NCBI RefSeq assembly: GCF_963678225.1
Contig: NZ_OY782764.1
Span: 464,001-528,000 of the forward strand
Source of the DNA: an uncultured Cohaesibacter sp.
GTDB lineage: Bacteria; Pseudomonadota; Alphaproteobacteria; Rhizobiales; Cohaesibacteraceae
DNA length: 64,000 nucleotides
Reading direction: 5' to 3'
Below the pieces are notes generated by a model. It was not told where the DNA came from and ran no database searches. It worked only from the letters and a program-made list of their open reading frames with translations. Position 1 is the first letter of the stretch; every line of letters starts with the position of its first letter. Shown here piece after piece: positions 34,139 through 44,478 of the stretch. Both the position numbers and the translations under genes were made by a program.

Positions 34139-34573
34139 CTAGCCCTCACGCACCACATAGACCGAGCATTTGGAGTGGCGCACCACGCGCGCCGCATTTG
34201 GCCCGATCAGCATTTCGCGCAGGTCAGGCTTATGGGCGCCGATCACGATCAGATCTGAATCGGCCTGTTCGGCGGTTTCCAGAATCTCCTCATAGATCGA
34301 ACCCGACGCCACGATATGACGCAGATCGGCCACACCGTCTTCGCCAAGAATGTCAGAGACACGCTTTTTCAAGGCAACCTTGGCATCTTTGACAGCCTGA
34401 TTCTGGAAATTCTCATCGAAATAGGAGCCGACGAGAGAGATCCGGAAATTGGGCACGACCGTAACGATATCCAGCCGAGCGCCTTCAAGCTTGGCGATCT
34501 TGTTTGCCGTATTCAGAACCTCGGTGTCATTCTCCTGACTGATATCAAGAGCGCATAGAACCGTATTGATCAT
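34139..34573 (-). CDS. Universal stress protein linked to a TRAP transporter
   Basis: A 144-residue UspA-domain protein starting MINTVLCALDISQENDTEVL and ending HSKCSVYVVREG. The nucleotide-binding loop reads VIGAHKPDLREMLIGPNAAR; the second glycine and the serine of the usual G-2x-G-9x-G(S/T) motif are missing, so ATP binding is uncertain. Its ATG overlaps the TRAP permease stop by four bases, and a GAGGAG site lies in the end of that gene. USPs coupled to TRAP operons (TeaD of Halomonas is the known case) modulate transporter activity, a likely role here. Confidence 0.88.
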   Translation of the reverse strand: MINTVLCALDISQENDTEVLNTANKIAKLEGARLDIVTVVPNFRISLVGSYFDENFQNQAVKDAKVALKKRVSDILGEDGVADLRHIVASGSIYEEILETAEQADSDLIVIGAHKPDLREMLIGPNAARVVRHSKCSVYVVREG

Positions 34574-37182
34574 GCTGGTTTCTCCTCTTTGCGACCAACG
34601 CGTGCACGCTGAAGCAAATAAACACATCCAAGCAGCAACAGCCCCGGAATATAGATCAGATCCTTGGGCAACTGGTCTGCCTTGATTTCCGCATGGGTAA
34701 TCTGCACAGGGTCATCCGCGTAGAAGTCAAAGCCGCCGAGCATTTCAAAGAAAGGCGTGCCCGGGAATGGCTCATCCAGCTTGGCCACCCCATCTTCATC
34801 GAGAATGGTAAGGCCCTGAGCCTCGAGGCGCGCATCGCCCCCAGTTTCGTCACCAGAGGTGATAACCAGGGTCGTTTCCTTGGTTGATCCGGTATCGAAA
34901 TCCGGCCCGGAGATGTTGAGCCGCATTTCATGCCCCGGGGGAATAGCCCCGAAGGCCTGACTGACCTGCGCCGGTTCCACCACCTCGAAAGGAGGCTGTA
35001 TCCGGTTCATGAAGAAGTCCGGACGGAACAGAATAAAGGCAATCAGCACCAGAGCGACACTTTCATAGATGCGGCTCTTGGTCACAAAATAACCCATCGT
35101 ACCCGCTGTAAAGACCAGCACCGCTATCATGCCGATAACAGCAACCAGAAGCCCCTGATACCATGTGACATCATACCAGAGCAGATCGGTGTTGAAGATG
35201 AAGACGAATGGCAGAGCAACGGTCCGGAGCGAATAGAAGAAGGCGGTGAAGCCCGTCTTGATCGCATCGCCCCCCGACACCGCAGCCGCCGCAAAGGAGG
35301 CGAGCCCCACCGGCGGCGTCACATCGGCCATGATACCGAAATAGAAGACGAACAAGTGAACTGCGATGAGCGGCACCACCAGACCGGATTGCGCCCCGAG
35401 CTGAACAACCACACCGGCCATCAGCGAAGACACAACGATATAGTTGGCCGTTGTCGGCAGTCCCATGCCCAGCACGAGCGACAGCATGGCCACGAAGATC
35501 AGCATCAAGACGAGGTTGCCCCCGGACATCAGCTCCACGAGATCCGCCATGACCTGCCCGATACCGGTCAGCGTCACCGTTCCCACAATCACACCGGCCG
35601 TTGCAGTGGCAAGACCGATACCGATCATGTTGCGTGAGCCATCGATCATGCCGATACCCAGATCACCAACACCAGCCTTGAAGGCGTTCACATATTCATT
35701 TTCGCCGCGGAACATGGCCTTGAGCGGCCGCTGCGTCAGCAGGATAACGAACATTAGAGCCGTCGCCCAGAAAGCGGAAAGCCCGGGCGATTTCTGCTCG
35801 ATCATCAGGAAGTAGACCAGAACCACGATCGGCAGCAGATAGTAAAGACCGGTTTTGTAGATGTCCTTGACTTCAGGCAGCACGATATTCTCGTCATTTG
35901 GATCGTCCGGTTTCAGATCATCCACCGATGCCGCCAGCTTGAGCAGCAACAGATAGGCCACGAAGGTGATGGCCGCCAGAATCCAGCTAGCCCCTTCAGG
36001 CACCATGGAGACGATCAACCCGATCGGATATTTGATGCCATAGCAAAGCAGGGCAAATCCGACAAAGAAGAACAACATGCCAAGAATGGTTCGCGCCGTG
36101 GAAACAGCTTTCGTACCGATGGTGGGCATATTCCGCTTCACCGCTTCCAGATGCACGATATAGACCAGCGCAACATAGGACAGGATCGCAGGCAGGAAGG
36201 CATGCGTGATCACTTCCATGTAGGAAATGCCCACATACTCCACCATCAGGAAGGCAGCAGCCCCCATGACCGGCGGCATGATCTGCCCGTTCACCGAAGA
36301 AGCCACCTCAACAGAGCCAGCCTGCTCGGAGGTAAAGCCCACCCGTTTCATGAGAGGAATGGTGAAGGTTCCCGTCGTCACCACGTTAGCAATGGAAGAT
36401 CCGGAGATAAGACCAGTAGCTGCCGAACCAACAACGGCTGCCTTGGCAGGTCCGCCCTTCAAATGCCCCAAAGCAGCGAAGGCCATCTTGATGAAATAGT
36501 TCCCCGCCCCGGCCTTGTCGAGCAACGAGCCGAACAGCACAAACAGGAACACGAACTTGGTGGAAACCCCCAGCGCGATACCGAACACGCCTTCGGATGT
36601 GATCCACATGTGGCTCATGGCCTTCTTGAGCGAAGCGCCCTTCCAGCGAATGACTTCCGGCACCCATTCAGATGACCCGAAAAAGACATAGACAAGGAAG
36701 ATGACCGCAATGGTCGCCATAGCCGGACCAAGCGCACGCCGGGCCGCTTCAAACAGCAGGATCAGGCCTGCAAGGGCGACCCACTTGTCGACATCATCGG
36801 CCAGACCGCCATTGTTGACGACCTTCTGATAGAAGAAGAAGCCATAAAGCGCGATAAAGGTGCCTGCCAGCGCGAAGATCCAGTCCTGAACCGGAATATG
36901 ATGGCGTGGACTGCTTTTCAGCGCCGGATAAGCCATATAGGCCAGGAAAATGGCAAAGGCCAGATGCACCTGACGCGAGTTGTTGATCAGATCGGACGGA
37001 AGAACATAGTTGGAAATCGGTGAAGCCAGCAAGACCTGAAAGGCAGCCCAAACAAGGGCAACAATAGCCAAAAAGGTACCAACCGGGCCGATCGGATTAC
37101 GCGCTCCCGCATCCGTAGAGGCAACCAGGTCCTGAAGTTCTTCTTCAGAAAGTGGACGCCCAGACGCATTTTTCTGTGACAT
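34570..37182 (-). CDS. TRAP transporter permease, fused small and large subunits
   Basis: An 870-residue inner-membrane protein. The N-terminal four helices correspond to the small DctQ-like subunit and the following twelve to the DctM-like large subunit, with signatures GSAATGLISGSSIANVVTTG and SSVNGQIMPPVMGAAAFLMV and a second half repeat GMGLPTTANYIVVSSLMAGV. A C-terminal periplasmic domain (about residues 710-850) resembles the DUF3394 domain of this fused class. The fused form pairs with TAXI-type binding proteins, as found directly upstream. The ATG at 37182 (MSQKNASGR) is preferred over a longer open frame. Confidence 0.93.
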   Translation of the reverse strand: MSQKNASGRPLSEEELQDLVASTDAGARNPIGPVGTFLAIVALVWAAFQVLLASPISNYVLPSDLINNSRQVHLAFAIFLAYMAYPALKSSPRHHIPVQDWIFALAGTFIALYGFFFYQKVVNNGGLADDVDKWVALAGLILLFEAARRALGPAMATIAVIFLVYVFFGSSEWVPEVIRWKGASLKKAMSHMWITSEGVFGIALGVSTKFVFLFVLFGSLLDKAGAGNYFIKMAFAALGHLKGGPAKAAVVGSAATGLISGSSIANVVTTGTFTIPLMKRVGFTSEQAGSVEVASSVNGQIMPPVMGAAAFLMVEYVGISYMEVITHAFLPAILSYVALVYIVHLEAVKRNMPTIGTKAVSTARTILGMLFFFVGFALLCYGIKYPIGLIVSMVPEGASWILAAITFVAYLLLLKLAASVDDLKPDDPNDENIVLPEVKDIYKTGLYYLLPIVVLVYFLMIEQKSPGLSAFWATALMFVILLTQRPLKAMFRGENEYVNAFKAGVGDLGIGMIDGSRNMIGIGLATATAGVIVGTVTLTGIGQVMADLVELMSGGNLVLMLIFVAMLSLVLGMGLPTTANYIVVSSLMAGVVVQLGAQSGLVVPLIAVHLFVFYFGIMADVTPPVGLASFAAAAVSGGDAIKTGFTAFFYSLRTVALPFVFIFNTDLLWYDVTWYQGLLVAVIGMIAVLVFTAGTMGYFVTKSRIYESVALVLIAFILFRPDFFMNRIQPPFEVVEPAQVSQAFGAIPPGHEMRLNISGPDFDTGSTKETTLVITSGDETGGDARLEAQGLTILDEDGVAKLDEPFPGTPFFEMLGGFDFYADDPVQITHAEIKADQLPKDLIYIPGLLLLGCVYLLQRARVGRKEEKPA

Positions 37183-37332
37183 AGATTGCAGCCCCCAGCC
37201 ATCGCTCCCAAGCGCGATTACAACCAAGCTGAAACCGTCAAACAGTTTCACCAGCACTGATCGGCGATAGCATATTATTAATTATGGAAAACCGAACCCG
37301 GCCTTGCCGGGTCCAGTCACAGCAATTGCAAA

Positions 37333-37360
37333 AGGCTTCGGACACAAGAGCCCGAAGCCT
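37333..37360 (-). promoter_or_regulatory. Intercistronic hairpin between TAXI protein and TRAP permease
   Basis: AGGCTTCGG (37333-37341) and CCGAAGCCT (37352-37360) form a nine-pair stem 15 bases after the binding-protein stop, with only a short TTTGC afterwards on the minus strand. It probably stabilises or partly terminates the upstream message so that binding protein exceeds permease. Confidence 0.65.
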
Positions 37361-37374
37361 GAAATCAGCGAGAC

Positions 37375-38340
37375 TTACATCCAGCCTTTTTCTTTGTAAT
37401 ATTTCACAGCACCCGGATGCAGAGGAGCAGACAGACCGTCCTTGATCATTTCTTCCGGTTTCAGGTGAGCAAATGCAGGATGCAGTTTTTTAAAGGCATC
37501 GAAGTTTTCGAAGACGGATTTCACAAGCGTGTAAACAGCGTCATCGGAAACAGTAGCGGAGGTCACCAGAGTTGCACCAACACCGAAGGTTTTCACATCT
37601 TCATCATTTCCGCGATACATGCCACCGGGAATGGTGGCGGAGCGGTAGTAGGCATTGTCAGAGATCAGTTTTTCAACTGCAGGGCCGTCAACCGTTACCA
37701 GAACGGAATCACAAGCCGTGGTGGCTTCCTGAATGGAACCGGATGGGTGACCAACGGTGTAAACCATAGCGTCGATCTGGTTGTCACACAGAGCAGCAGA
37801 CTGTTCGGCAGCCTTCAGCTCGGTAGCCAGAGCGAAGTCGTCGGTGGTCCAGCCAAGGGCTTCCATCAGAACTTCCATGGTGCCACGCTGGCCAGAACCC
37901 GGGTTACCGATATTGACGCGCTTGCCTTTAAGGTCGGCGAAGTTTTTCACGCCGGCATCAGCACGGGCAACCACGGTGAATGGTTCCGGATGGATGGAGA
38001 ACACGGCGCGCAGATCTTCAAAAGCGCCTTTGTCTTCAAATTTGGAGGTACCATGATAAGCGTGATACTGCCAATCAGACTGGGCAACACCGAACTGCAG
38101 TTCCCCGTCGCGAATCGTGTTGATGTTGTAAACGGAACCACCGGTTGATTCGACAGAGCAGCGAATCCCATGGTCTTTGCGGCCTTTATTGACCAGACGG
38201 CATATAGCGCCACCCGTTGGATAATATACGCCGGTTACACCGCCGGTACCGATGGAAATAAAGCTCTCGGCAAACGCCGCTTGAGAAAAGCTCAAGCCAG
38301 CTGCGACTGCAGCTGCAGTGATTGTCAATTTTTTCAACAT
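37375..38340 (-). CDS. TAXI-family TRAP solute-binding protein
   Basis: A 321-residue periplasmic protein. Signal peptide 1-24 ends AAFA, with the mature protein beginning [20 protein letters not shown], the signature of the TAXI (TRAP-associated extracytoplasmic immunogenic) family. Later motifs include [14 protein letters not shown] and [23 protein letters not shown] ligands are largely unknown, glutamate being one known case. It heads the transporter unit on the minus strand. The genes divergent and upstream of it encode a transaminase and a BKACE enzyme, pointing to an amino acid as ligand. Confidence 0.93.
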
Positions 38341-38382
38341 AAAGTTCTCCCTGAGTTGATCGAAAGGTTAATCCAAGTCTAT

Positions 38383-39243
38383 TCAATCCCAAAACTCACC
38401 ATATCGGTGATTCCGGGTTTCAACTTCTTCAATTCTGGCGCGAGCACTATCCCCTGCCCTAGCAACCAGCATTCCGATAAGAGTTTCAATTAGCACAAGC
38501 GTGGCTGCATAAGAAGAGAAGAATTGTGGACTCTCTGTCGGCACGATAAAATTTGCAGATGCATGTGAAAGAGCCGGGCAGGAAATATCATCCGTAATAA
38601 CAAGTACATAGGCACCCGCATCGGCGGCCATCTCGGCAGCAACAATCGCGCGTCGGGCATAGGGAGCCTTGGTCAGGATAATGACGGCGTCCTTCTCGTT
38701 AAGCCCCACCATGGCCGAGCTCAAAGATGCCCCCATCCGTCCGGCAACCTTCCAGTTATCGGCAAAATAGCGCGCAAGATATCCCAGATACTCCATAAAA
38801 CCTGTAGAACTGAAGGCCCCAAACAAGAGCACCTGACGGGCATCATTCAGACGATCCGCCACAGCGACCAGCTGTTCCTGATTGATATCCCGTTCCAATT
38901 TACCAAGATTTTCAAGGCTGGCAGACACCTGCCGTTCGAAAAAGGAACGAGTGCTGTTGCCGGCTCCATCTTCGACAAGCAAGCTCGCGCGTTCAGAAAA
39001 TGACATGGCCTGACGTCCGATGCGCTGGCGGCACATGTCTCTCATTTCTTCATAATTGGAAAATCCCAGCGCCTGAGAAAGCCGTGTAAAAGTGGACGGT
39101 GCCAAACCCGCCATACCGGACACCGAGCGTAACGAGTGAGTCGCAATTTCGACTTCATGGTCGACCACAAAGTCTGCGGCCTGTTTCAACCGCCCGCTCA
39201 GTTGGCCATAGTGACCAGAAATCCTGTCCTGAATCGACTGCAT
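38383..39243 (-). CDS. MurR/RpiR-family transcriptional regulator
   Basis: A 286-residue regulator with an N-terminal HTH_6 domain (about 1-75, with VSGMAGLAPSTFTRLSQALG) and a C-terminal SIS domain (about 120-260, with VLLFGAFSSTGFMEYLGYLA and VIILTKAPYARRAIVAAEMA). SIS domains of this family bind phosphosugars or other small effectors. It lies between the TRAP genes and the divergent aminotransferase gene, so it likely controls both. A short inverted repeat at 39321-39334 in the intergenic region is a candidate operator. Confidence 0.9.
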   Translation of the reverse strand: MQSIQDRISGHYGQLSGRLKQAADFVVDHEVEIATHSLRSVSGMAGLAPSTFTRLSQALGFSNYEEMRDMCRQRIGRQAMSFSERASLLVEDGAGNSTRSFFERQVSASLENLGKLERDINQEQLVAVADRLNDARQVLLFGAFSSTGFMEYLGYLARYFADNWKVAGRMGASLSSAMVGLNEKDAVIILTKAPYARRAIVAAEMAADAGAYVLVITDDISCPALSHASANFIVPTESPQFFSSYAATLVLIETLIGMLVARAGDSARARIEEVETRNHRYGEFWD

Positions 39244-39320
39244 ATCCGTAATAGTTATTCCACCCTAGGTCTCATGACGCATCAGTAAAATTTCAATTGT
39301 TTTAACGAAAGTCAATAGTT

Positions 39321-39334
39321 GAAACAAATGTTTC
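39321..39334. promoter_or_regulatory. GAAAC-N4-GTTTC inverted repeat, candidate RpiR operator
   Basis: GAAAC (39321-39325), AAAT, GTTTC (39330-39334), in the 196-base gap between rpiR and the aminotransferase gene. The same A/T-rich stretch carries a further TTGTTTTAACGAAA motif at about 39297-39310. Confidence 0.45.
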
Positions 39335-39439
39335 TATGCTATATAACCCACCCCTTGGGTCAAACGGTCCAACACCCCCGCGCGACCCGCTAGAACCATT
39401 GCTGCGGAGGCCATCTCCGCCCTATCAGCAGGCACTGCC

Positions 39440-40762
39440 ATGTCCCACATATTCCCTCGCCATACCAAATCCAATCTTCCCACTGTAGACCACGGAAAAG
39501 GCGTTTATCTCTTTGACACCGAAGGGAAATGCTATCTGGACGGGTCCGGAGGAGCGGCAGTCTCCTGTCTGGGTCATGGCGATCAAGATGTTATCGACGC
39601 GATCAAACAACAGCTTGACGCCGTCCCCTTCGCGCACACCAGTTTTTTCACCTCCAAGCCTGCCGAAGCGCTCGCCGACAAGCTGATCGCGCATGCCCCT
39701 GAAGGGCTTGACCGGGTCTATTTTGTTTCAGGCGGCTCAGAAGCCGTAGAATCGGCGATCAAGCTCGCACGCCAGTATTTTCTTGAAATCGACCAGCCGC
39801 AGCGTCGCCATATCATCGCCCGCCGCCAGAGCTATCATGGCAACACTCTTGGTGCGCTCGCAACGGGCGGCAACCTGTGGCGTCGCGAACCTTTTGCGCC
39901 TTTGATGATCGAGACGAGCCATATCTCCCCCTGCTATGAATACCGTGACCGCAAGGAAGACGAGAGTGCCTTTGACTATGGCCAGCGCGTCGCCAATGAG
40001 CTGGAAGATGAAATCCTGCGCGTCGGGGCCGAAAAGGTCATGGCCTTCTTTGCAGAACCGGTTGTCGGCGCAACGGCCGGGGCATTACCGCCGGTTGAAG
40101 GCTATTTCAAACGCATTCGTGAGATTTGTGACAAATATGGCATCCTCCTGGTGCTGGACGAAGTCATGTGCGGCATGGGCCGTACCGGCACGCTCTTTGC
40201 CTGTGAACAGGACGGCATCGCACCGGACATCCTGACCACAGCCAAGGGCTTGGGCGCAGGCTATCAGCCCATCGGCGCCATGATCTGCACCGACACGATC
40301 TACAAGGCGATTGAGGATGGCACAGGCTTCTTCCAGCATGGCCACACCTATATCGGCCACCCCACGGCAGCGGCAGGAGCACTGGCGGTTTTGACCAAGC
40401 TGACCGATGGCGGTCTTGTAAAGCGCGCTGCGGAAACCGGCACCAAACTGCGCGCAGCCCTCGATGATGCCTTTGCTACCCATCCCTATGTGGGCGACAT
40501 TCGAGGCCGCGGCATGTTCCTTGGCATCGAGTTCGTTGAAGACAAAGAGAGCAAGAAGCCTTTTGATCCGGCCCTTGCAACCGCCAAACACCTCAAGAAA
40601 GCAGCCTTTGAAGCAGGCCTTATCTGCTACCCGATGAGCGGAACGATCGATGGCAAATTCGGCGATCACATTCTGCTGGCGCCTCCCTTCATCTATGAAG
40701 ACGCGCATATCGAAGAATTGGTCGGCAAATTGAAGATTGCCATGGACAAGGTGCTGCCATGA
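39440..40762 (+). CDS. Class III PLP-dependent aminotransferase
   Basis: A 440-residue fold-type I transaminase. FVSGGSEAVESAIKLARQYF binds the phosphate of PLP, RRQSYHGNTLGALATGG holds the ring-stacking aromatic residue, LVLDEVMCGMGRTGTLFA holds the Asp that contacts the pyridine nitrogen, and the Schiff-base lysine is in LTTAKGLGAGYQPIGAMI. Members act on omega- or beta-amino groups as well as on diamines. The stop overlaps the start of the BKACE gene by four bases, so the two are translated together; this suggests its product is a beta-keto acid passed to that enzyme. The exact substrate is unknown. Confidence 0.9.
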   Translation: MSHIFPRHTKSNLPTVDHGKGVYLFDTEGKCYLDGSGGAAVSCLGHGDQDVIDAIKQQLDAVPFAHTSFFTSKPAEALADKLIAHAPEGLDRVYFVSGGSEAVESAIKLARQYFLEIDQPQRRHIIARRQSYHGNTLGALATGGNLWRREPFAPLMIETSHISPCYEYRDRKEDESAFDYGQRVANELEDEILRVGAEKVMAFFAEPVVGATAGALPPVEGYFKRIREICDKYGILLVLDEVMCGMGRTGTLFACEQDGIAPDILTTAKGLGAGYQPIGAMICTDTIYKAIEDGTGFFQHGHTYIGHPTAAAGALAVLTKLTDGGLVKRAAETGTKLRAALDDAFATHPYVGDIRGRGMFLGIEFVEDKESKKPFDPALATAKHLKKAAFEAGLICYPMSGTIDGKFGDHILLAPPFIYEDAHIEELVGKLKIAMDKVLP

Positions 40763-41562
40763 CCTTGACTGCAGACCAATCTCCCCTGCCAGCGATCATG
40801 ATCGCGCCCAACGGGGCACGCAAGGGCAAGGCGGATCATCCCGCCCTGCCTGTTACCATTGCCGAGACTGTCGCAACGGCTCTTGCCTGCCAAGAAGCAG
40901 GAGCCGACGGCATCCATGCCCATGTGCGTGATGCCGAGGGCAAGCATATTCTTGATGCCGGTCTTTACAGCGAATTGCTCGATGAACTGACAAGACAGAC
41001 CCCGAACCTCTATGCCCAGATCACGACCGAAGCCGTCGGTCAATATGGCCCCGCCGAACAGAGAGCCATTGTCGAAGCGGTGGAGCCAACCGCGGTATCC
41101 ATTTCGGTCAAGGAAATGCTGAGCGATGGCGAAACCGCGGACGTCAAACGCTTCTATCACGCGCAGGCAGAAAAGGGCGTCGCCATCCAGCACATCCTCT
41201 ATGATCAGCAACAAGTCCTTTTCCTGCTCGACCTCTGCCGTCGTGATATCATTCCCATCCATAACCTCCAATTGCTCTTCGTTTTGGGGCGTTACACCGA
41301 TGGGCAGGTTTCATCCCCCGATGATCTGCGGCCATTCATCAAGGCCAAACAAAGCCTTGAAGAGGAACTGCAATTGAAGACAGACTGGGCCTGCTGTGCC
41401 TTCGGATCACAAGAGACCGACTGTCTTCTCAAGGCGGAAAGCTTGGGAGGGAAGGTTCGGATCGGTTTTGAAAACAACATGACCAACAAGGATGGCACCC
41501 TCGCAAGGGACAATGCCGAGCGCGTGGCCGACCTCATCAAGGCCCGACCGACAGCACGTTAA
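40759..41562 (+). CDS. BKACE-family beta-keto acid cleavage enzyme
   Basis: A 267-residue TIM-barrel enzyme of the family founded by 3-keto-5-aminohexanoate cleavage enzyme (Kce). Family members condense a beta-keto acid with acetyl-CoA, releasing acetoacetate and a new acyl-CoA. The zinc-binding HAHVRD motif and the C-terminal RIGFENNM (metal-binding Glu and the catalytic-site Arg) are present. Two positions differ from Kce as I recall it: GAR where Kce has GAE, whose Glu holds the substrate amine, and ENN where Kce has EDN. This places it in a subfamily with a different substrate. Co-translated with the aminotransferase. Confidence 0.88.
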   Translation: MTLTADQSPLPAIMIAPNGARKGKADHPALPVTIAETVATALACQEAGADGIHAHVRDAEGKHILDAGLYSELLDELTRQTPNLYAQITTEAVGQYGPAEQRAIVEAVEPTAVSISVKEMLSDGETADVKRFYHAQAEKGVAIQHILYDQQQVLFLLDLCRRDIIPIHNLQLLFVLGRYTDGQVSSPDDLRPFIKAKQSLEEELQLKTDWACCAFGSQETDCLLKAESLGGKVRIGFENNMTNKDGTLARDNAERVADLIKARPTAR

Positions 41563-41676: not shown

Positions 41677-44478
41677 ATGAAGCGGGCACCTCTTTATCGC
41701 ATATTGACGCTTCTGGTCGTTCTTGTTTGCTGCGTACTGGCAAACAGGGAAGGCTGGTTCGACCATATTGATCATGTACTCACGGAGCATCGCATGGCCA
41801 CACGAGCCATGCCGGCTTCCGGCGAAATTGTCCTTCTTGAAATCGATAACAAGAGCCTCTCGGCCATTGGCGTTTGGCCATGGAAGCGCTCGATCTATGC
41901 CGATATCCTTGATAAGGCCTTCAAGGCCGGAGCACAGGAGCTGGCCTTCGATATCGACTTTTCATCCAGTTCAACTCCCGGAGAAGATCAAGCTTTTGCC
42001 GCAGCGCTCGCACAGGCGGAAGGGCCGGTAACCCTTGCCGTTTTCCAGCAATTTGCCACCTCAAGCATGGAGGCAGAAGAACAACGCTTCAACCGCCCCA
42101 TCGACTCACTGGCCACTCAGGCCTGGCTGGCCACGGTCAATGTGATCGCCGATCCAGATGGTTATGTGCGGTCCTTTCCTTTGGCGCAAACCATTGGTGG
42201 CGAGCTGTTCCCCTCCCTTACCAGCACCCTGAGTGGATATCAGGAGATTGTGGAACAACAGCAGATCATCAATTTCAATATCGATCCGGACACGATCCCC
42301 ACCTATTCGGTCATAGATCTGTTGGAAGGCACACTGCCGGAAAGGGCGCTTGAAAACCGTAAAGTTCTGATTGGCGCTGGCGCAGCAGAATTGCGCGACA
42401 CAATGGCGGTGCCCGTCTTTGGCGTTCTCAGTGGGCCGCAACTGCAGGTCATTGCCGCAGAAAATCTGCTACAGGGCACCAATGTTCATCAGGCTCCGGA
42501 GCGCTGGACCTATGGCCTGATGCTGCTGTTACTAGTGCCCATGGGGTTGATCCTCCTTCTGAGGAAGTTCAACAGCTACGGCCGACTGGCAGGCTTATTC
42601 GCACTGGCCACTGGCGTGGAGTATCTGGGCTACACCCTTTATGCTGATCATCATCTGCTGCTGGATACAGCCATGGTTCAAGCGACCATTCTATTGACAG
42701 GCGTGGCCCTGACGCTGACCGAAGTAGGCTTCAAGTCCGTGCTGCTCAATCTGTCTCACAAGCATGGCCAGAGCATATCCGATCTGCTGGATACCATTGT
42801 CACCGACAGCCTGACAGGCATTGTAATTGTTGATTCCGAACGCCGCATCCTCAGTGTGAGTCAACAGGCGCAGCAAACATTTGCGCGTCTCGGATATGAC
42901 GCCCACAAAGGTGCTCTTATGGAGCAATCCATACCATCGGAGTTTGGCTGCAAGATCAGGGAATGCCTTGAGAAGGTCCACTGGCACCATAACGGGTCGA
43001 ATACGCACCTGCTTGAAATTGAACGCAGGGGCGGAAGACGCATTTACGAATATTCCATAACGCCGTCCTCCATAGCCCCCGACGGCGATGCCCAACAAGA
43101 AGAAAACAAGGTCGTAACCCTTCTGTTTCACGATATCACGGATGTCTATCTGGAACAGAAGCGCCTCGCCTTTATCGCAGATCATGACCCCATCACAAAT
43201 CTGTTCAACATGCAGGGCTTTTGCAATCAGATCGAAGAGGCCTCTTCTTCCGACGCCACTCTAGACACCACAATCATTCTGGCCTGTCAGGGAAGACGCA
43301 TCGAAAAGGTCAACCAGATGCTGGGTCCGGACTATGTCGACAGCCTCTTACGGCAGATCGGCCAGTCCTTCATCGCCCTGCAGCAATTCGATTGCATAGG
43401 CTGTTGCACCAACCGCAAAACCTTCCTACTTGCCAAGAGGAATGCAAGCCCATCCGATATGCATGCATTGGCAGAGAAGGTTCAGGCATGTTTGGATGCT
43501 CCGTTCGATGTGCGCGGGCACAGCATCATGGTTGGCTCGCAAATCGGAGGAGCCAAATTTGATGGCGCGACCATGAAAAACGCAGCCGATTTGACCAATG
43601 CAGCCATCACTGCCCTTGATCATGCTCAGGAAACAGGGGAGGACTGCGCGGTCTATTCTACCAGTCTCGCCGCCGACGTTCAGCGCAAACGGTTTCTGGA
43701 GAACGAAATACCGGGTGCTTTCGAGCGCGAGGAATTCGAGCTTTACTATCAGCCGCAGGTCGACCTGAAAACAGAAGAACCCGTGGGCTGCGAAGCGCTG
43801 GTTCGCTGGAACCACAAGGAACTGGGCCTCATTCGCCCCGACCATTTCATTCCCATTCTGGAAGAAACAGGCAAGATAGTGGAACTGGGACACTGGCTCC
43901 TCAAAACCGCTTGTTCTCAGGCGATGACTTGGCCAAAGCCGGTGCCGGTCGCAGTCAATATTTCAGCGGTGCAGTTCCAGCGCTCCAACATTCTCGAAGA
44001 GATTGAAGAGGCGCTAGCGCTTTCCGGGCTGCCGCGCGACCGCCTGCATATCGAGATCACGGAGTCCCTTTTCATTGCAGATCCCGAAGCCGTTCTTGAG
44101 CAGCTCACAGCCATCAGAAACAGAGGCGTCAAGATCGCGCTAGATGATTTCGGCACAGGCTACTCATCCCTGAGCTATATTCATCGGTTCCCTCTGGACA
44201 AGATCAAGATAGACCGCGCCTTCGTCAAGGACCTGCCCTACTCTGCGGATTCCATGGCCGTCATCAATGCGGTCACAGCGCTCGCCCATGGCTTTGACAT
44301 GAAGATCGTTGCTGAAGGCATGGAAAACCAACAACAGGCCGATGTCTTGCGTGTTGCTGGCTGCCATCAGGGGCAAGGCTTCCTTTTTGGCAAACCAATG
44401 ACAAGCGATCAATTTGCATCCTATCTTTCACCCAGCGCAACGCTCAGCGCGGAGGAGAAACGACGCCAAATCGGTTAA
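41677..44478 (+). CDS. CHASE2-PAS-GGDEF-EAL c-di-GMP phosphodiesterase
   Basis: A 933-residue membrane protein. A first helix (about 7-24) leads into a periplasmic CHASE2 sensor (about 30-275, with IVLLEIDNKSLSAIGVWPWK), followed by three helices (about 283-360), a PAS-like domain and a GGDEF domain whose signature region reads CCTNRKTFLLA, so the cyclase is dead. The EAL domain is intact: CEALVRWNHKELGLIRPDHF, VNISAVQF, IEITES, IALDDFGTGYSSLSY, IKIDRAFV and EGMEN. It should hydrolyse c-di-GMP in response to an unknown periplasmic signal. It is 114 bases after the BKACE gene with no visible shared function. Confidence 0.9.
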   Translation: MKRAPLYRILTLLVVLVCCVLANREGWFDHIDHVLTEHRMATRAMPASGEIVLLEIDNKSLSAIGVWPWKRSIYADILDKAFKAGAQELAFDIDFSSSSTPGEDQAFAAALAQAEGPVTLAVFQQFATSSMEAEEQRFNRPIDSLATQAWLATVNVIADPDGYVRSFPLAQTIGGELFPSLTSTLSGYQEIVEQQQIINFNIDPDTIPTYSVIDLLEGTLPERALENRKVLIGAGAAELRDTMAVPVFGVLSGPQLQVIAAENLLQGTNVHQAPERWTYGLMLLLLVPMGLILLLRKFNSYGRLAGLFALATGVEYLGYTLYADHHLLLDTAMVQATILLTGVALTLTEVGFKSVLLNLSHKHGQSISDLLDTIVTDSLTGIVIVDSERRILSVSQQAQQTFARLGYDAHKGALMEQSIPSEFGCKIRECLEKVHWHHNGSNTHLLEIERRGGRRIYEYSITPSSIAPDGDAQQEENKVVTLLFHDITDVYLEQKRLAFIADHDPITNLFNMQGFCNQIEEASSSDATLDTTIILACQGRRIEKVNQMLGPDYVDSLLRQIGQSFIALQQFDCIGCCTNRKTFLLAKRNASPSDMHALAEKVQACLDAPFDVRGHSIMVGSQIGGAKFDGATMKNAADLTNAAITALDHAQETGEDCAVYSTSLAADVQRKRFLENEIPGAFEREEFELYYQPQVDLKTEEPVGCEALVRWNHKELGLIRPDHFIPILEETGKIVELGHWLLKTACSQAMTWPKPVPVAVNISAVQFQRSNILEEIEEALALSGLPRDRLHIEITESLFIADPEAVLEQLTAIRNRGVKIALDDFGTGYSSLSYIHRFPLDKIKIDRAFVKDLPYSADSMAVINAVTALAHGFDMKIVAEGMENQQQADVLRVAGCHQGQGFLFGKPMTSDQFASYLSPSATLSAEEKRRQIG

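Follow-up and report, generated by a model that had tools for sequence, protein, structure and literature searches.

A conserved TAXI-TRAP, aminotransferase and BKACE-family gene cassette in Cohaesibacter, tentatively assigned to import and breakdown of an acidic beta-amino acid such as beta-glutamate

The gene cassette described here lies at positions 34139-41562 of a 64,000-nucleotide stretch from an uncultured Cohaesibacter sp. (contig NZ_OY782764.1, positions 464,001 to 528,000; hereafter the window), and its products resemble two described systems. The first is the TAXI-type TRAP transporter VcGluPQM of Vibrio cholerae, whose binding protein VcGluP is reported to be specific and stereoselective for glutamate; it also binds glutamine and gave no response to aspartate, lysine, 2-oxoglutarate or adipate (PMC11574862). 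The second is the DUF849 family of Kce and BKACE enzymes, in which Glu171 of BKACE15 is the catalytic base and the corresponding Leu mutant is inactive (PMC11961710). One DUF849 group, G6, with 70 of 725 members, was listed as "not BKACE" and decarboxylating, with 16 cases of beta-ketoglutarate activity (PMC4922564, reporting Bastard et al. 2014). We propose uptake of an acidic beta-amino acid and its degradation by the cassette, with beta-glutamate (3-aminoglutarate) the likeliest compound, which would pass through 3-oxoglutarate to acetoacetate; we give this reading a probability of roughly 0.48.

The earlier note, made from the letters of the window, had described six genes in a divergent layout, and all six were found at their positions with matching profiles:

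34139-34573, minus strand: universal stress protein (USP), last gene of the transporter operon (PF00582, 86.4 bits)
34570-37182, minus strand: fused TRAP permease with C-terminal DUF3394 (TIGR02123, 632.9 against a cut-off of 320.65; PF06808, PF11874)
37375-38340, minus strand: TAXI solute-binding protein with a VcGluP-type pocket (TIGR02122, 384.8 against a cut-off of 84.35)
38383-39243, minus strand: RpiR/SIS-type transcriptional regulator (SIS, PF01380, 29.9 and above its cut-off of 25; HTH_6, PF01418, 22 and below its cut-off of 28.3)
39286-39335, no strand: candidate operator in the divergent promoter region, an AT-rich and conserved stretch that contains imperfect inverted repeats
39440-40762, plus strand: class III aminotransferase of the PRK07483 type (NF005685, 755.7 bits against a cut-off of 485)
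40759-41562, plus strand: BKACE-family (DUF849) protein of an Arg14/Ile143/Asn231 subfamily in Kce numbering (PF05853, 172.4 against 24.8)

The genes form two divergent units, RpiR-TAXI-permease-USP on the minus strand and transaminase-BKACE on the plus strand. The divergence around a single RpiR gene was as the note had it, with the refinement that the RpiR gene sits on the transporter strand, 42 bases ahead of the TAXI gene, and apparently heads the transporter operon. The four-base overlap of the transaminase and BKACE genes that the note had pointed out is present as ATGA at 40759-40762, and a second four-base ATGA overlap joins the permease and USP genes at 34570-34573, where the USP start lies within the permease stop. 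The permease may have a longer form starting from a GTG at 37257 on the minus strand. The source genome is close to that of Cohaesibacter marisflavi, and the six proteins share 93 to 99.7 percent identity with their counterparts at another locus (L004).

The transaminase and BKACE genes are linked beyond chance. BKACE relatives (E up to 1e-40) were found in 54 of 385 alphaproteobacterial genomes, that of the window included, and the transaminase in 92. Both genes occurred in 45 genomes (Fisher p 4e-24, uncorrected for ancestry) and lay at most 3 kb apart in 39 of them, the other six holding the two genes apart and, in three cases, on different contigs. For the neighborhoods, 57 loci were compared, consisting of up to 20 kb around the 53 other BKACE genes plus four named contigs, two of them from Cohaesibacter. 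Counts were made by tblastn, since initial open reading frame calling missed genes in GC-rich loci, with the transaminase counted at 45 percent identity or more; some contigs end close to the BKACE gene. Within 5 kb of the BKACE gene, the transaminase was present in 43 loci, TAXI in 33, the permease in 29, RpiR in 23 and USP in 13. All six genes lay inside 8 kb in 11 of the 57 loci, and on a single strand in six of these. The order RpiR-transaminase-BKACE-TAXI-permease-USP was found in three loci (L051, L061 and L074) and in Thalassospira marina, and in Paracoccus sp. SMMA_5_TC the TAXI, permease, USP, transaminase and BKACE genes follow on one strand. The earlier note had suggested such a gene-neighborhood comparison and would have taken a lack of joint conservation as refutation; the outcome favors linkage.

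A sample of the phylum (398 genomes, partly overlapping the 385) extended this distribution. The BKACE subfamily was present in 32 genomes, four of them outside the class, and loci were obtained for 30 of 33 places. Of the 23 loci from genomes new in this sample, 13 carried the transaminase (at least 57 percent identity) within about 1.5 kb. A Vibrio plasmid also carried the transaminase, BKACE and TAXI genes. The linkage of transporter and enzymes spans many family-level groups. These results support the genes as one functional cassette.

The importer has a glutamate-type pocket. The nearest solved relative of the window TAXI protein is VC0430/VcGluP (8s4j, 465 bits), and because this is a glutamate binder, the statement in the note that TAXI ligands are undescribed is out of date. 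The two systems share the TAXI protein, the fused permease with a C-terminal extension, the USP gene and 10 of the 13 VcGluP ligand contacts, including the critical Y45 and Q93. The window system differs in three pocket residues (S40 to Gly, D157 to Gln and M201 to Thr) and in its linkage to a transaminase, a BKACE-family protein and an RpiR-type regulator. In VcGluP, S40 holds a water near the side-chain carboxylate, D157 a water on the alpha-carboxylate, and the main chain of M201 lies at the amino group (PMC11574862); two of the three changes are thus at the alpha-carboxylate and the amino group. Among 37 TAXI proteins compared, taken as the best match of each cassette locus, Y45 was retained in 35 and Q93 in 34, and position 157 was Gln in 22 and Asp in none. 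By analogy, the relationship to VcGluP points to a glutamate-like ligand, and the pocket changes could serve a shift of the amino group from the alpha to the beta position. A pocket change alone is no proof of another ligand, because other relatives vary at 157 and 201 too, and the TAXI relative of T. thermophilus has Thr at both positions. In Paracoccus pantotrophus and Rhizobium sp. NZLR1, an importer annotated as GlnHPQ and a C45-family hydrolase stand beside the enzyme pair; GlnH of P. pantotrophus scored 390.9 bits against a cut-off of 303, and the Rhizobium importer was identified by annotation only.

L-glutamate is itself a possible TAXI ligand, and in the alternative that survives best, L-glutamate or glutamine is imported as a nitrogen source or osmolyte, and the enzymes use a different compound with glutamate as amino donor only. 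This is favored by the stereoselective glutamate binding of VcGluP and by a Cereibacter sphaeroides TAXI locus that supports growth on L-glutamate (PMC12632250). In the tree, VcGluP falls among the TAXI proteins of cassette loci, where it groups with a Vibrio TAXI protein adjoining the enzyme pair (support 87/89). However, the linkage of transporter and enzymes in many family-level groups and the differences of the window TAXI protein from VcGluP near the alpha-carboxylate and amino group speak against the alternative, which we consider unlikely. Both TAXI trees were built without L004, L005, L072, L087 and L100, and the second also without TtGluBP and L088-L090.

The BKACE-family protein has lost the residues of the cleavage reaction. 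Its structural model (pLDDT 94.7) had Kce as the best PDB match (TM 0.81, 28 percent identity), and ObcA and cis-epoxysuccinate hydrolase were among the further structural matches. We aligned 103 BKACE rows, chosen for their likeness to the window protein or to its profile, to Kce; 96 of these are distinct, with seven from repeat genomes. The position of Kce E143 is Ile in 102 rows and Leu in one, that of D231 is Asn in all 103, and that of E14 is Arg in 99, where the arginine could suit a second carboxylate. The zinc ligands, which we take to be His46, His48 and Glu230 in Kce numbering, are retained together with Arg226 in all 103 rows, the window protein included, and Tyr145 is retained in 99. 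This numbering agrees with the Tyr145 of PMC12871164, which equates Tyr173 of BKACE15 with Tyr145 of Kce. Because of the spacing to this tyrosine, Glu171 of BKACE15 corresponds to Glu143 of Kce. Compared with Kce and the BKACE enzymes (PDB 2y7d, 8rip), the window protein therefore shares the TIM barrel, the zinc site of two His and one Glu, Arg226 and Tyr145, and differs by E143 to Ile, D231 to Asn and E14 to Arg.

As a control, 31 further loci of the family were selected from 91 places, namely the 29 top-scoring places, at most one per genome, and two paralogues of the window's own genome; the selection was ranked, not random. Thirty were read, with L185 left out. Glu143 and Asp231 are both present in all 29 members whose zinc site is intact; the remaining one, from the window's own genome, is a divergent member in which the zinc ligands are lost. 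This third own BKACE-family gene (L003, G000:C2:2083280-2084101; 114.9 bits, 29 percent identical to the window protein) adjoins a distant RpiR-like gene and probably has another function. No control locus carried the cassette transaminase (at least 50 percent identity) within about 1.5 kb. In four of these loci (L172, L173, L174 and L177), the canonical BKACE gene (Glu143/Asp231) has another class III transaminase, 42 to 44 percent identical, at a distance of up to about 1.5 kb, and these pairs are possibly the true acetyl-CoA-dependent counterpart of the cassette.

The scheme of the earlier note, transamination followed by cleavage with acetyl-CoA to acetoacetate and an acyl-coenzyme A (acyl-CoA; this would be malonyl-CoA for beta-glutamate), is favored by the Kce fold and by the retained zinc ligands, Arg226 and Tyr145. 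Because the catalytic base Glu143 and also Asp231 are replaced throughout the subfamily and kept by the zinc-intact relatives, and the E171L mutant of BKACE15 is inactive, acetyl-CoA-dependent cleavage is improbable and, judged by its residues, the window protein is probably not a cleavage enzyme. Malonyl-CoA formation was dropped for the same absence of the catalytic base. The cleavage step of that scheme was therefore abandoned, and its first step, in which a transaminase turns a beta-amino acid into a beta-keto acid, was kept as the simplest scheme. Group G6 is the best published match found for a subfamily such as this one, which may belong to it by likeness of description (no cleavage, decarboxylation, beta-ketoglutarate scored). 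On these grounds, the window protein is predicted to be a beta-keto acid decarboxylase.

Taken together in the beta-glutamate reading, the TAXI-TRAP transporter would import beta-glutamate, the class III aminotransferase would pass its amino group to a keto acid to give 3-oxoglutarate, and the BKACE-family protein would decarboxylate this to acetoacetate and CO2. Among glutamate-like acids that a transaminase could convert to a beta-keto acid, beta-glutamate is the simplest candidate. The window transaminase matches NF005685 over its full length; this likeness to PRK07483-type aminotransferases is by profile, and no member with a measured substrate came up. Arg148 and Arg183, present in all 56 transaminase rows and rare among nine class III paralogues encoded in the own genome, may or may not lie in the active site and were not used. 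A CoA transferase encoded elsewhere would feed acetoacetate to acetyl-CoA. Two CoA-transferase pairs of the own genome are candidates for activating acetoacetate, and no acetoacetyl-CoA synthetase above the curated cut-off was found in it.

A different acidic amino acid with a beta-keto form, such as 3-methylaspartate, 3-aminoadipate or an aspartate derivative, could be processed and decarboxylated likewise, given a dicarboxylate pocket and a decarboxylase-like protein, and the structural relative ObcA handles oxaloacetate. Considering that VcGluP is reported to be unresponsive to L-aspartate and adipate, and that glutamine-type importers adjoin the enzyme pair in two bacteria, we rate this less probable again. 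It is very improbable that the BKACE-family protein is a hydrolase or another enzyme that neither cleaves nor decarboxylates, as the structural match to cis-epoxysuccinate hydrolase and the changeable family chemistry demonstrated by BsfD (PMC12871164) might suggest, since a keto acid is what a partner transaminase would lead one to expect.

In addition to the position of VcGluP in the tree, several observations weigh against the beta-glutamate reading. The co-occurrence statistic for the transaminase and BKACE genes ignores ancestry, and at the threshold used, 47 of the 92 genomes with the transaminase had no such BKACE gene and 9 of the 54 with the BKACE gene had no such transaminase. In one genome (G002), the distance from the transaminase to a canonical BKACE gene is 2.0 kb. 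Other importer types also adjoin the enzyme pair, among them other ABC importers in Sulfitobacter THAF37 and Paracoccus aminovorans. The subfamily could possibly correspond to the inactive group G7 or to G4, with negatively charged substrates. The same BKACE subfamily also occurs in settings without a nearby transaminase, in one case beside a different TAXI set. On a Rhizobium rosettiformans plasmid, a BKACE gene of the same type is part of an aromatic ring-cleavage cluster (L103:7959-13040). On a Microvirga ossetica plasmid, an Ile143/Asn231 BKACE gene overlaps a 3-hydroxyacyl-CoA-dehydrogenase-like gene (L095:5011-7798) in a sugar-acid-like cluster with an IlvD-type dehydratase and sugar transporters, which suggests that this member decarboxylates another beta-keto acid. 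The subfamily may thus be a general branch of beta-keto acid decarboxylases with a chemistry wider than one substrate.

A variant of the cassette carries an additional gene. In six loci, a gene for a protein of about 810 to 830 residues resembling a flavin adenine dinucleotide (FAD) oxidoreductase and GcvT stands by the transaminase and BKACE genes:

L006:6163-8652, L038:5361-7760, L040:11781-14255, L053:10149-12584, L065:10116-12494 and L078:10151-12574: FAD/GcvT-type gene

The L053 protein, the one that was scanned, consists of an FAD oxidoreductase half and a GcvT-like half. Trp200/Ala201 is found in all four TAXI proteins of the FAD/GcvT loci and in none of 33 other TAXI proteins. Both the extra gene and Trp200/Ala201 would make sense if the added protein were a demethylase with an N-methylated substrate. 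The four TAXI rows were split in one tree and grouped at 82/85 in the other, and the covariation may stem from a single origin. On Alloyangia pacifica plasmids (L097:6764-6991 and L105:7761-7988), a short open reading frame annotated as a glycine-cleavage T C-terminal barrel lies directly upstream of the BKACE and transaminase genes and looks like a remnant of the FAD/GcvT gene.

The RpiR-type regulator would sense the imported compound or a product and control both divergent operons. The divergent intergenic region measures 196 bases, and the block at 39286-39335 is identical in 48 of 50 columns among three Cohaesibacter-type loci, which makes it a candidate RpiR site. A search of the own genome with this block as a regulon marker returned one exact match and three with two mismatches (control, 0), and this was too weak to use. 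Beyond the BKACE gene, a large CHASE2-GGDEF-EAL protein is encoded on the same strand at 41677-44478 of the window, and GGDEF/EAL-like genes occur near several other cassette loci. Neighbor families F6-F12 and F14-F19 were considered as partners and set aside by eye, with no family search, as chromosomal neighbors; by eye they resemble an Mla-type transporter, cytochrome c, adenine phosphoribosyltransferase and others, and F14 is the CHASE2-GGDEF-EAL gene by BLAST. Families F17-F19, found near some clusters and resembling D-glutamate catabolism genes by eye, were not used; the block also occurs in L069 and L077 without the transaminase and TAXI genes.

Of the metabolites identified in Nitrosopumilus maritimus, beta-glutamate is reported to be the most abundant, at 730 mM intracellularly, and in two ocean profiles its abundance was higher at depth (PMC8269262). 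It is also an osmolyte of methanogens (PMC1224877). Three methylaspartate ammonia lyases were reported not to deaminate it (PMC7241714), and the authors of a gut study settled on general glutamate genes because KEGG has a single metabolite entry for it (PMC12502400). Titles and abstract starts of the literature found, a coverage outside which most subscription journals lie, name no genes for beta-glutamate breakdown, and the same holds for the literature found on beta-ketoglutarate and cleavage enzymes. The protein families of the cassette are known ones; their combination is conserved, one catalytic site is altered, and the pathway is probably undescribed. Still more tentatively, and with the odds against it, this could be the first bacterial gene set for catabolism of beta-glutamate as an osmolyte of marine archaea, comprising a beta-tuned TAXI-TRAP importer, a transaminase and a CoA-independent 3-oxoglutarate decarboxylase derived from a branch of the BKACE family, with a sister FAD/GcvT version whose TAXI protein, reshaped in its amino-group pocket, would accept the substrate in N-methylated form. 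If the beta-glutamate reading is true, the cassette would provide marker genes for the flux of beta-glutamate to bacterial consumers, assign a class of substrate to one TAXI subgroup and divide DUF849 by function, and the Ile143/Asn231 proteins now annotated as "3-keto-5-aminohexanoate cleavage protein" should not carry the name of a cleavage enzyme.

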